From Azospirillum oryzae (GTDB taxonomy: Bacteria; Pseudomonadota; Alphaproteobacteria; Azospirillales; Azospirillaceae): 64,000 nt of DNA. The stretch spans positions 248,001-312,000 of the forward strand of contig NZ_FXAK01000004.1 of the NCBI RefSeq assembly GCF_900177515.1, in the 5' to 3' direction. Position numbers and translations under genes: made by a program. Of the stretch, positions 20,403-23,746 are shown in pieces (the first letter of the stretch is position 1; each line of letters starts with the position of its first letter). Under the pieces are notes generated by a model that worked only from the letters and a program-made list of their open reading frames with translations, had not been told where the DNA came from and ran no database searches.

Positions 20403-21176
20403 TCACGACCCCGGCCGGCGGGCCAGCACGTAGATGTAGTCGCCGTGCGACCAGGAATTCAGGCGGAAGATGTGGTACAGCGCCTCGGCAAGGAAGCGCC
20501 GGCCGGGGCCGTAGTCACCCTCGGTGCCCTGGCCGCTGGCGGCGCCCAGCACGTTGCGGTAGAGCGGCGAGAAGAAGGGGAAGCCCCACTCCACCACCCG
20601 CTCGATCTCCAGCCCGACCGACTGGATCTTGGCCTGCAACTCGCCGCGGGCATAGTTGCGGTGGTGGCCGACCGTGCGCTCGAAATCGCGCATCCGGCCC
20701 TGCAGGGTGGAGACCAGCAGGTAGCGGCCGGTCATGGCGGCGAGGTTGCGCAGCGCCGCGACGTCATCCTCGATATGCTCGACGACATCGGTGCAGACCA
20801 CCAGGTCGAAGCGGCGGTCGAGATGGCCGGCGGCGACGTCGAGCAGGCCGAACTCGGCGTTCGGCGCGCGGCGGCGGGCGACGTCGATCGCCTTGGCGGC
20901 GAAATCAAGACCGGTGTAGCTGGCCTGCGGCTTCAGCGGCATCAGCGTGGCGAGCAGCGAACCCTGGCCGCAGCCGACGTCAGCCAAGCTGTCGTAGTTC
21001 AGCGGGCGCACCATCTCGGTGACGATGCGGCGCAGATGCCGGCCGGTCGGGCCGTATTTGCGCATGTCGTTCCAGCGCCGCTCCCAGCTGTCGTCGTAAT
21101 CGACGCCGCCGGGATGGTCTGCCGCCGCCGCGGGAAGGGGGGTGTGGGTGGCGGACTTGAATGCGTCGTCGCTCAT
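20403..21176 (-). CDS. Class I SAM-dependent methyltransferase
   Basis: 257 aa. Motif I is LADVGCGQGSLLATL, with YTGLDFA next and FDLVVCTDVVEHIEDD as the post-motif, typical of Methyltransf_11/12 enzymes. VSTLQGRMRDFERTVGHHRNY resembles sugar or lipid-glycan methyltransferases. The start ATG overlaps the stop of the upstream methyltransferase (ATGA), so the two are translationally coupled. Upstream of the next gene, around 20339-20362, there is an A/T-rich TTTTCATGAAGTCATGAAG stretch. Confidence 0.8.
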   Translation of the reverse strand: MSDDAFKSATHTPLPAAAADHPGGVDYDDSWERRWNDMRKYGPTGRHLRRIVTEMVRPLNYDSLADVGCGQGSLLATLMPLKPQASYTGLDFAAKAIDVARRRAPNAEFGLLDVAAGHLDRRFDLVVCTDVVEHIEDDVAALRNLAAMTGRYLLVSTLQGRMRDFERTVGHHRNYARGELQAKIQSVGLEIERVVEWGFPFFSPLYRNVLGAASGQGTEGDYGPGRRFLAEALYHIFRLNSWSHGDYIYVLARRPGS

Positions 21177-22042
21177 GCGGGCCTCCGGCGCAGGATGAAT
21201 TCGTTGCAGCCCGTCGGCACGCGCGGCGGACGGACCTCCAGCATGTCGAAGCCGAGCGCGTCCATCCGCGCCCGCACCTCGTCGGCACTGGCATATTCGT
21301 AGGGGTAGCCGCCGAGCCAGTCGGTCACGTCCACCCAGAACTCCATGCCGCGCTCCTTGCGCAGCGGGTTGGAGCCGGTGATCGCCCAGGTCGCCAGGAA
21401 CATCAGCGAGCCCAGCGTCCAGTCCCAGAATTTCCGAAGGAAGCCCGGCGACAGATTGTAGACGATCTTGATCAGGGTCCAGATCGGCGAGGTCCAGTGG
21501 CGGTTGTAGAGCGCCAGCACGAAGGTGCCACCCGGTGCCACCAGCGGGGCCACCGTCTCAATCGCCGGCCACATCGATCCGGTGTGATGCAGCGAGCCCC
21601 AGGCATAGACCACGTCGAAGCGGCCGAGCGAGCCGACGAAGCCGCTGTCCAGTGCCGAGCCGCGGCGGAACTCGATGCGCTCGGCCAGTTCGGGCGCGAA
21701 GCGGCCCAGGTTGCGGCGGGCGACCTCGACCCCGGTGGGGTTGACGTCGAAGCCCAGCGCGCGGGCGACGCCCAGCTTGCCGGCGGCGATGGTGAACAGG
21801 CCGGAGCCGGAGCCGACGTCGCAGAAGCTGGCGCCCTTCAGCCGGTCGGTCCCGACCAGCCCCTTCAGGCTGTCGATGGCCGCCACCAGCCGCGGCTCGT
21901 CCAGCACGGTGCGCGAGTAATGGTCCCAGTTCTCGCCGAAATTGAAGGCCAGGGCGGGTGTCCCGGCCGGGGTTCCGCCCCCGCCTTCCGCCGTCTTCAC
22001 CGGTTCCGCCACGCTGTCCGATCCCTTGCTGTCCAAGCCCAC
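21173..22042 (-). CDS. Class I SAM-dependent methyltransferase
   Basis: 289 aa from a GTG at 22042; no strong ribosome site is visible, and the first 25 residues are low in conserved signal. Motif I is SFCDVGSGSGLFTIAAG, followed by ALGFDVNPTGVEVARRN and FDVVYAWGSLHHTGSMW. The later region, with SPIWTLIKIVYNLSP and DWLGGYPYEYASADEV, matches a methyltransferase family common in bacterial LPS and glycan clusters. It is coupled by a 4-bp overlap to the next methyltransferase, suggesting both act on the same product. Confidence 0.8.
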   Translation of the reverse strand: MGLDSKGSDSVAEPVKTAEGGGGTPAGTPALAFNFGENWDHYSRTVLDEPRLVAAIDSLKGLVGTDRLKGASFCDVGSGSGLFTIAAGKLGVARALGFDVNPTGVEVARRNLGRFAPELAERIEFRRGSALDSGFVGSLGRFDVVYAWGSLHHTGSMWPAIETVAPLVAPGGTFVLALYNRHWTSPIWTLIKIVYNLSPGFLRKFWDWTLGSLMFLATWAITGSNPLRKERGMEFWVDVTDWLGGYPYEYASADEVRARMDALGFDMLEVRPPRVPTGCNEFILRRRPA

Positions 22043-22153
22043 TCTGCCGCGCCGCCATACGCTCCCGAAAGCCGCCGGATGTCAACAGGACGTCAAGCGG
22101 GAGGCGTGGCGGCATGTATCCTTGGACGGGCGGAGAGCGGTGGGCAAGATGAA

Positions 22154-22286
22154 CACGGATGTCACGGATTTAGACACGGATGTCACGGATATGGCGTTGC
22201 GAGGCGGCGTCTTCATGAAGGAGCGGGGGCGCCGCCAAGATCAAAAAAAATCCGTGAAATCCGTGTGTTCATCCGTGACATCCGTG
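22154..22286. repeat. ATCCGTG/CACGGAT symmetrical palindrome (eight heptamers)
   Basis: Four copies of CACGGAT begin at 22154, 22163, 22175 and 22184. Four copies of ATCCGTG begin at 22250, 22259, 22271 and 22280. The spacing is 9-12-9 on both sides, so the two 37-bp arms are inverted copies with 33 of 37 positions matching and a 59-bp centre. It lies between two minus-strand genes and would form a long hairpin in the transcript. Function unknown: candidate mobile palindromic repeat, terminator or protein-binding site. Confidence 0.85.
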
Positions 22287-22331
22287 GAGATCTTGTCAGA
22301 CACCCCTGAACGTCGCAGGAATCCAAACGCC

Positions 22332-23528
22332 TCACTCCGCCTGCGCCGACCGGACCCGTCCCGCCGCGGTGCGACCGGCGAGCGCCAGATCGCGGTAGGC
22401 GGTGGCGACGGCGCGCCAGGAGAAATGATCGACCACCCGTTGCCGGCCGCCCTCGCCCAGGCGGCGGCGCAGGGCCGGATCTTCGGCCAGACGGGCGATG
22501 GCGGCGGCAAGCGCCGGCGTGTCGTCGGCGTCAAGCATCAGGCCGGTCTCCTCCTCCACCACCAGATCGCGGTTGCCGGCGATGCGGGTCGCCACCACGG
22601 GCAGGCCGGCGGCCATCGCCTCCAGAACCACGTTGGGCATGCCCTCGTCGCGCGACGGGAAGACGAAGGCGTCGGCGGCGCGGTAGGCGGCCGGCAGCTC
22701 GTCACGCCCCAGCCAGCCGCAAAACGCGATGCGCTCCGACAGCCCGAGCCGGGCGGCCTGCGCCTCCAGCTCCGGCCGGGCAGGGCCATCGCCGACGATG
22801 GTGAGGCCGATGCGCTCGCGCAGAGCCGGCGACAGGCTGGCGAGCGCCTCGAACAGCACGTCCAACCCCTTCTGCCGCACCACCCGGCCGACGAACAGCA
22901 AGGACAGGCGGTCGCCGTCACCCGCCGCATCGGCGGGCGAGAAACGGGCGGCATCGACGCCGTTGGGGATGATGGCGATGGGCTGGTCGGGAGCGAAGCG
23001 GCGGGCGAGGTCGGCCAGCCCCTTGCTGTTGGCGACGACGGCGGAGGAGCGGCGCCACAGCCAGCCGATCACCGGGCCGGCCAGCCGGTGATAGAGCGAG
23101 ATGCCGTCATACTGGAAGCCCGGCACGTCGCCGCCGCGCAGGCTGACGACATAGGGCACGCCGGACAGCGCCTTCACCATCCAGGCCGCCGGGCCGCAGG
23201 GCAGGCCGAAATAGGCGATGGTGGCGTCCGGGCGCCAGCGGGCGGCGATCCAGGGCGCCATCACCAGCGAACTGGCGAGGAAGGCCAGCATCTCCACCAC
23301 CGAACTGCGGTCGCGGCGGCGGCGCAGGGTGGGGATGCGGCGGATCTCCACCCCGTCGGCCCGCCGTTCCATCCGCGACAGATCGCCGAAGGCGGAGGTC
23401 AGCACCAGCACCTGTTCGCCCAAGGCGGCCAGCTCGCGCGCGGTGTTGTCGGTGGCGTTGGCCGCCCCGCCGCCCAGCGGCGGAAATTCGTAATTGATCA
23501 GCAGAAGCCGTGCCATGCCGCGCGCCAT
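22332..23528 (-). CDS. GT4 glycosyltransferase
   Basis: About 398 aa from ATG 23528, with GGGGA close upstream (ATG 23516 is an alternative). The upstream open frame to 23726 lacks family signal. N-terminal domain: LLLINYEFPPLGGGAANAT. C-terminal donor domain: LLFVGRVVRQKGLDVLFEAL, IVGDGPARPELEAQA and FPSRDEGMPNVVLEAMAAGLPVVAT, the GT4 EGxxxxxxEA signature. It would act at the cytoplasmic face on a lipid-linked glycan. It is divergent from the TPR-GT gene starting at 23747, and the ATCCGTG palindrome lies just after its stop. Confidence 0.85.
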   Translation of the reverse strand: MARGMARLLLINYEFPPLGGGAANATDNTARELAALGEQVLVLTSAFGDLSRMERRADGVEIRRIPTLRRRRDRSSVVEMLAFLASSLVMAPWIAARWRPDATIAYFGLPCGPAAWMVKALSGVPYVVSLRGGDVPGFQYDGISLYHRLAGPVIGWLWRRSSAVVANSKGLADLARRFAPDQPIAIIPNGVDAARFSPADAAGDGDRLSLLFVGRVVRQKGLDVLFEALASLSPALRERIGLTIVGDGPARPELEAQAARLGLSERIAFCGWLGRDELPAAYRAADAFVFPSRDEGMPNVVLEAMAAGLPVVATRIAGNRDLVVEEETGLMLDADDTPALAAAIARLAEDPALRRRLGEGGRQRVVDHFSWRAVATAYRDLALAGRTAAGRVRSAQAE

Positions 23529-23746
23529 ATTCCCCGTTCGACGAGCGCCATTGATGGGCGGTGAGCGGCGGCGATGCAAGCGGTCAGCCAACTCCACTTG
23601 CCGGCCCCACCTGTCATCACGCTGGCCGCCCCACCTCCATCCGGCCGGTGCCGGTCCTTTGCAGCATCGGCCATCTCTGCTACTGATCGCGCCGGTTTCC
23701 GATGCTGTCCGAAACCAGTTCCTCAACCGGGGCGATGCGGTCCTTC

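Follow-up and report, generated by a model that had tools for sequence, protein, structure and literature searches.

Eight heptamers clustered within 133 bp of the window (the whole 64,000-nucleotide stretch of Azospirillum oryzae DNA that was analyzed) form an element that almost certainly belongs to a dispersed repeat family linked to genes of the GxxExxY type. We favor the reading that it represents a two-part repeat system, composed of one putative GxxExxY nuclease and its dispersed cognate arrays, and that this copy is gene-less and hence non-autonomous; a shade less confidently, comparative analysis suggests that the GxxExxY protein mobilizes the elements.

The window element and its family

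CACGGAT starts at positions 22154, 22163, 22175, and 22184 of the left array (22154 to 22190, forward strand), and ATCCGTG starts at 22250, 22259, 22271, and 22280 of the right array (22250 to 22286, reverse strand), which is an inverted copy of the left one. Start-to-start spacing is 9, 12, and 9 in each arm. A sequence-only reading had reported these eight heptamers and their 9-12-9 spacing at 22154 to 22286, and every position was confirmed exactly; the exact symmetry that it described holds for heptamers and spacing but not for the whole sequence, because linkers differ between the arms and the palindrome is thus imperfect. The arrays are flanked by a left outer box (22145 to 22153, forward strand; part of the consensus GGCAAGATNNA, from a profile of 36 arms of 18 locus clusters) and a right outer box (22287 to 22295, reverse strand; the reverse complement of the left box, from arm comparison and the arm profile). 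The arms extended in this way (22145 to 22190 and 22250 to 22295; 46 nt) are 85% complementary. The interior spacer (22191 to 22249) holds no recognized gene, and a sister copy carries a GxxExxY gene at this place. ATCCGTG occurs 15 times in the 64-kb window (shuffle mean, 10.2), and at least 15 copies were reached in 7 of 100 shuffles, so the total is not unusual; what is unusual is the clustering of eight. No Rfam match at the gathering score was found in the window.

Two host genes lie outside the element on the reverse strand, both named from A. oryzae orthologues: a class I SAM-dependent methyltransferase (21173 to 22042) and a glycosyltransferase family 4 gene, whose true start is probably inside its open reading frame (22332 to 23726). 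Several frames run open through the arrays and give probably spurious reading frames at 21942 to 23564 (forward) and 22241 to 22534 (reverse), with TDVTD/HTDFTD motifs.

Genome-wide, ATCCGTGWNATCCGTG (at most one mismatch) gave 24 + 24 matches (reversed control pattern, 0 + 0), and these 48 matches group into 13 elements, each with a pair of arrays that face inward; L021 is degenerate, and heptamers are worn or missing in a few. The common outer box GGCAAGATNNA surrounds the heptamers, with weaker G-rich conservation to ∼46 bp. There are 13 elements in this genome, and 36 of the genus's 45 genomes contain the half-array CACGGATNNCACGGAT, so the repeat is not unique; uniqueness was what the sequence-only reading had said would count against it. 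Its guess of a mobile palindromic repeat fits, since copies are dispersed and relatives have sites without the element. Its argument from a spacing near one helical turn did not generalize: relatives have spacings of 8, 9, 10, 9/10, or 9/12, and helical phase as a general rule was rejected on the spacings of 8. Many gene-less copies are common to several species, as seen in the arm clusters (18 clusters of the arm profile, built on shared 14-mers, with L175 joined wrongly). Composite arrays with CACAGAT and CACGGAT words were observed at L293, L294 (partly outward-facing), and L295.

At the window locus, the element is present in G000, G022, G024, G032, and G036 and clearly empty in G013, G018, G026, G029, and G044. 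These five empty relatives match the window at ∼21650 to 22100 and 22330 to 22821, with 4 to 33 bp between, which places the whole inserted segment at about 22101 to 22328 (ends uncertain by ∼10 bp). The empty count excludes G020 and G030, where the two flanks lie apart, and G016 (∼80% identical, diverged), whose locus is without arrays; G034 has apparent outer ends and no arrays. The left array of the orthologues L053 (G022) and L056 (G032) is shorter by exactly one 21-bp unit (two heptamers). Six plasmid records match the locus, all from Azospirillum, four of them 91.5 to 95.8% identical over 42 to 100% of the query; A. oryzae KACC 14407 carries a copy there; both flanks also match in A. lipoferum 4B and A. 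ramasamyi, with no heptamer between them.

A second locus, L018 (13 genomes), has the element in G000, G013, G018, G024, and G036, a remnant in G033, and empty sites in G020, G021, G022, G029, G030, G032, and G044. All four combinations of presence and absence occur at the two loci, which calls for one or more additional gains or losses. About 16 to 20 bp of the empty site is replaced at L018. No target-site duplication was recognized at the two empty-site loci, where the relatives are diverged and the ends not base-exact. Of the five copies at this locus, L287 and L288 (from G024 and G036) have the 110-bp interior in the opposite orientation to that in L018, L285, and L286 (inverted alignments, z 7.9 to 11.1; direct, z −0.8 to 0.9); in other clusters, 23 of 27 pairs have the same orientation and four are ambiguous (L016 versus L183 and L186, L019 versus L188, and L020 versus L209).

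The GxxExxY gene and its arrays

Within the window, it is true that no gene explains the palindrome, as the sequence-only reading had stated, but another site of the genome has a GxxExxY gene enclosed by the same arrays. The sole PF13366 gene of the genome sits between the arrays of one element (C5, 91579 to 92038; inter-array distance, 386 bp), and this copy shares its ends with the gene-less elements. The gene matches PF13366 at 123.4 bits (cut-off, 22) and TIGR04256 (NCBIfam name, GxxExxY) at 127.6 bits (cut-off, 35; E value, 3e-37). An AlphaFold2 model of an A. soli relative (L082, aligned with 16 others) has a confident PD-(D/E)XK fold (pLDDT, 93.6). Its best solved structural match is SSO0001 (4ic1; Z, 10.5; rmsd, 3.2; 98 aligned), a Cas4-like protein, and the many nucleases at the tool's "common" level include Holliday-junction resolvase Hjc with a Z of 7.5; searched by sequence, solved structures gave a single chance-level match (E value, 0.95). 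From the model, the protein is predicted to have a PD-(D/E)XK nuclease fold with a putative catalytic D...ExK. Neither alignment shows any variation at residues D75, E85, and K87 (15 sequences in A1, from the 30 genus loci; 17 in A2 and the model, from 21 named loci, excluding L093 [stop] and L100 to L102). In PMC8934634, GxxExxY is described as a domain that accompanies a CRISPR-like RT.

In 19 of the genus's 45 genomes, the gene-bearing copy is found at one shared position next to cobS, so the gene is not a hopping transposon. Judged by dN/dS (0.03 to 0.24 for the printed gene pairs with unsaturated dS), the gene is evidently under purifying selection at its one locus. Truncated GxxExxY genes occupy the cobS site in G005 and G043; in 20 other genomes (G043 included), the site is empty, filled with longer unrelated sequence, or left with worn remnants. 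Where the gene is absent (L152 to L159 and L162), only single worn heptamers are left, so arrays decay there. The gene is old and vertically kept, whereas the gene-less copies are patchy.

Such arrays accompany GxxExxY genes, and this association, which prompted the PF13366 test, may in part be known to curators. PF13366 was found in 26 of 45 genomes of the genus (34 matches, of which 30 were fetched at first). Runs of CACGGAT- or CACAGAT-like heptamers surround the gene at 23 of these 30 loci (the near left array worn at L042), the remaining 7 have arrays of CACCAAG, CACAAAG, CACGAAG, or CACAGAG, and all four later-fetched genes have arrays on both sides, the left one worn in one case.

A wider set of 80 GxxExxY loci comprised the 30 from the genus, 29 of 42 non-own phylum matches, and 21 named contigs (Desulfobacterales, Bacteroidota, and Caldilineaceae included; two of the named proteins, both from Azospirillum, have the same sequence as genus rows in the set). 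A motif detector that imposes C at positions 1 and 3 and purines at 5 and 6 found inward-facing arrays at 50 of 80 loci, of several phyla, versus 3 of 1,094 shifted windows (25 of 30 genus loci, 15 of 29 phylum loci, and 10 of 21 named contigs), with direct arrays at 6 of 80 and outward arrays at 0 of 80; 30 of 80 loci failed the motif test. An unconstrained detector gave scores of at least 4 at 55 of 80 loci versus 0 of 314 shifted windows and at least 3 at 67 of 80 versus 35 of 314, and its words were mostly of the imposed-motif kind (exceptions include L089, L094, and L098).

Genes of PF05635 (23S_rRNA_IVP, four-helix-bundle) were also observed between inverted tandem arrays of 7- to 8-mers, with scores of at least 4 at 13 of 30 loci and 0 of 120 shifted windows (L216, L222, L230, L231, L235, L241, L244, and six more); AGGCAGT, present six and eleven times, is an example. 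Both kinds of locus hold a small orphan gene between such arrays, but the PF05635 protein is unrelated to GxxExxY, its heptamers are different, and its arrays are often pure tandem. Since an unrelated protein occurs in this setting, a nuclease may be unnecessary for such architecture.

Gene type, repeat type, and heptamer conservation

Array type was compared with a quick tree of 34 proteins, which has few strong branches (50 of the 80 loci, with both arrays found and the top word present at least three times, minus 16 close Azospirillum rows). Whole-heptamer changes numbered 16 (shuffled mean, 25.8), array-spacing changes 8 (shuffled, 19.3), and last-letter changes 4 (shuffled, 16.4), and 0 of 500 shuffles were as low. 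That array type follows the protein tree could, alone, be explained by co-inheritance of the gene with its own ends. Gene-less copies are the stronger test, and abundance of CACAGATNNNCACAGAT was predicted before the search for G002, G011, G012, G016, G041, and maybe G028, whose gene was verified as CACAGAT type only after it. Copies numbered 51, 36, 12, 26, and 33 in the first five and 29 in G028, versus 0 in the other 39 genomes of the genus except G027 (4) and G010 (1) (Fisher, 1.2e-7). This bore out the prediction: of the 45 genomes, only the six that have a CACAGAT-type gene are rich in CACAGAT arrays.

The gene-to-repeat link is weaker for CACGGAT. Pairs are more numerous in the 20 genomes with this gene type than in the 25 without (Mann-Whitney, p 3e-4; p 0.002 after subtracting two for the gene's own ends), and nine genomes have no CACGGAT pair at all, eight of them being without PF13366 and the ninth having a fragment. 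G002, G011, and G025 hold 2 pairs each despite the gene, almost none beyond its own ends. CACGGAT half-arrays are abundant without any PF13366 in G031 (55), G013 (31), and G034 (29), and G001 has 21 CACGGAT pairs with a GxxExxY gene of another type; so many pairs without the matching gene require gene loss or another mobilizer. The ends might instead be moved by an IS transposase, recombination, or replication slippage, with GxxExxY as a cargo or defense gene. Such gene-free genomes rich in copies, the missing target-site duplication at two loci, and the PF05635 genes in similar arrays (13 of 30 loci) all speak for this explanation, which we nevertheless regard as improbable, because gene type and repeat type match and because the GxxExxY protein matched no PADLOC family at an E value of ≤0.1 and none of 50,697 phage records.

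Substitution was compared in orthologous copies chosen by their flanks. Heptamer columns (those with an exact heptamer in at least two rows, a mild bias) differ in 12 of 462 comparisons (2.6%) and 13 of 532 (2.4%), linkers in 57 of 140 (41%) and 46 of 160 (29%), the outer 55 bp at 17% and 23%, and the DNA beyond at 8.5% and 11%; heptamers thus change ∼10 times less than linkers. These tests replace earlier ones on arms (L175, mis-clustered, removed; heptamers, 79 of 2,856; linkers, 258 of 918), which are biased because the arms were picked for intact heptamers. As two L018 interiors are inverted, the interior difference of 41 to 43% is inflated, and weight is put on linkers and the window locus. 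Heptamers are kept far more than linkers, as if protein-bound, which fits the cooperative binding guessed from the sequence alone.

The RNA folding check proposed by the same reading showed that one strand could fold strongly (−87.6 kcal/mol; z, −10.8), as would suit inverted arrays that are transcribed as a terminator, attenuator, or processing site, and the L018 copy lies, by eye, between a gene end and an apparent terminator hairpin. Linkers of the two arms of an element, however, agree at 98 of 162 positions versus 96.2 permuted (p 0.38), no better within than between elements, and the linkers thus lend no support to hairpin selection. A terminator scan, which counts loops of 3 to 8 only and could miss this one, called none at the arrays, and the association with the gene would be left unexplained, so that a role as an RNA hairpin is very improbable. 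With conserved heptamers and linkers without maintained pairing, the heptamers rather than a hairpin look like the kept part.

Their long conservation in gene-less copies would not be expected of purely selfish debris. It could mean that a domesticated GxxExxY DNA-binding nuclease or regulator uses the arrays as working sites (in repair, chromosome organization, or regulation) and that movement is rare and incidental. Heptamers in gene-less orthologues that change less than flanking DNA as well as linkers, and a gene at one locus under purifying selection, are in keeping with a host function; we think it unlikely, though less so than transport by another agent, since copies are patchy between related species, gene-less genomes keep only worn single heptamers at the cobS site, and some genomes are without both gene and arrays (PF13366 is absent from 8 of the 9 array-free genomes).

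Proposed mechanism and related systems

In the two-part system that we favor, GxxExxY is encoded once in the genome, between two inward-facing arrays of its own heptamer, with gene-less copies of the same ends scattered elsewhere. The protein would bind heptamers in double-stranded form, with several subunits on each array, and may cut at or near the element ends; this would allow low-frequency copying or movement of elements in trans, as has been proposed for REPINs and their RAYTs. The gene stays at its old chromosomal site beside cobS and does not hop. More tentatively, and a little short of an even chance, GxxExxY proteins may be the founding enzymes of a phylum-spanning repeat class, in which each member recognizes its own heptamer (approximately CRCNRAN) in inward arrays, gene-less pairs are amplified, and heptamer and spacing co-evolve with the protein; PF05635 may represent a parallel class.

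REPIN-RAYT systems have repeats beside the gene. Two sources describe, for these systems, a vertically inherited nuclease gene with dispersed inverted doublets, diverse spacers, and decaying singlets (PMC8049555) and co-evolution of enzyme and repeat (PMC8266576). The elements reported here resemble such a REPIN-RAYT system (REPtron) in a vertically inherited nuclease gene (cobS site, 19 of 45 genomes) with cognate dispersed doublets. They differ in that the enclosed gene encodes a TIGR04256 protein with the predicted PD-(D/E)XK fold, not an HUH/Y1 tyrosine transposase, and in that spaced-heptamer arrays, with linkers that lack maintained pairing, take the place of a stem-loop with a GTAG-type tag; the consensus of 36 arms is GGCAAGATNNA plus four heptamers, and the GTAG tag is absent. 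With neither HUH enzyme nor stem-loop, the system is closest to REPIN-RAYT in manner of life, yet we do not count it as a member. Like MITEs, the elements are short gene-less insertions with long terminal inverted repeats, and relatives have sites without the element; unlike MITEs, they have ends made of heptamer arrays and no known IS partner. A target-site duplication, as in MITEs, was not recognized at the two empty sites, where relatives are diverged and ends fuzzy. The Beggiatoaceae TAACTGA heptamers (PMC4679880) are likewise present in many intergenic copies, of unexplained origin, but unlike the inverted GxxExxY arrays they repeat directly, head to tail, and most precede start codons (one inverted case in 170 sets); the word "nuclease" is absent from that text. 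No description of such arrays was found among the literature matches listed, from a search that left most subscription papers and all preprints outside.

These results give a widespread protein family, known only by a motif name, a concrete candidate substrate in DNA, and they offer a likely origin for one class of heptamer palindromes found between genes. If the protein acts on the arrays, the REPIN-RAYT way of life would have a second enzymatic basis, and the match of protein to heptamer would be a code open to binding assays at once. Conservation of the heptamers in gene-less copies makes it directly testable whether such repeats serve the host.
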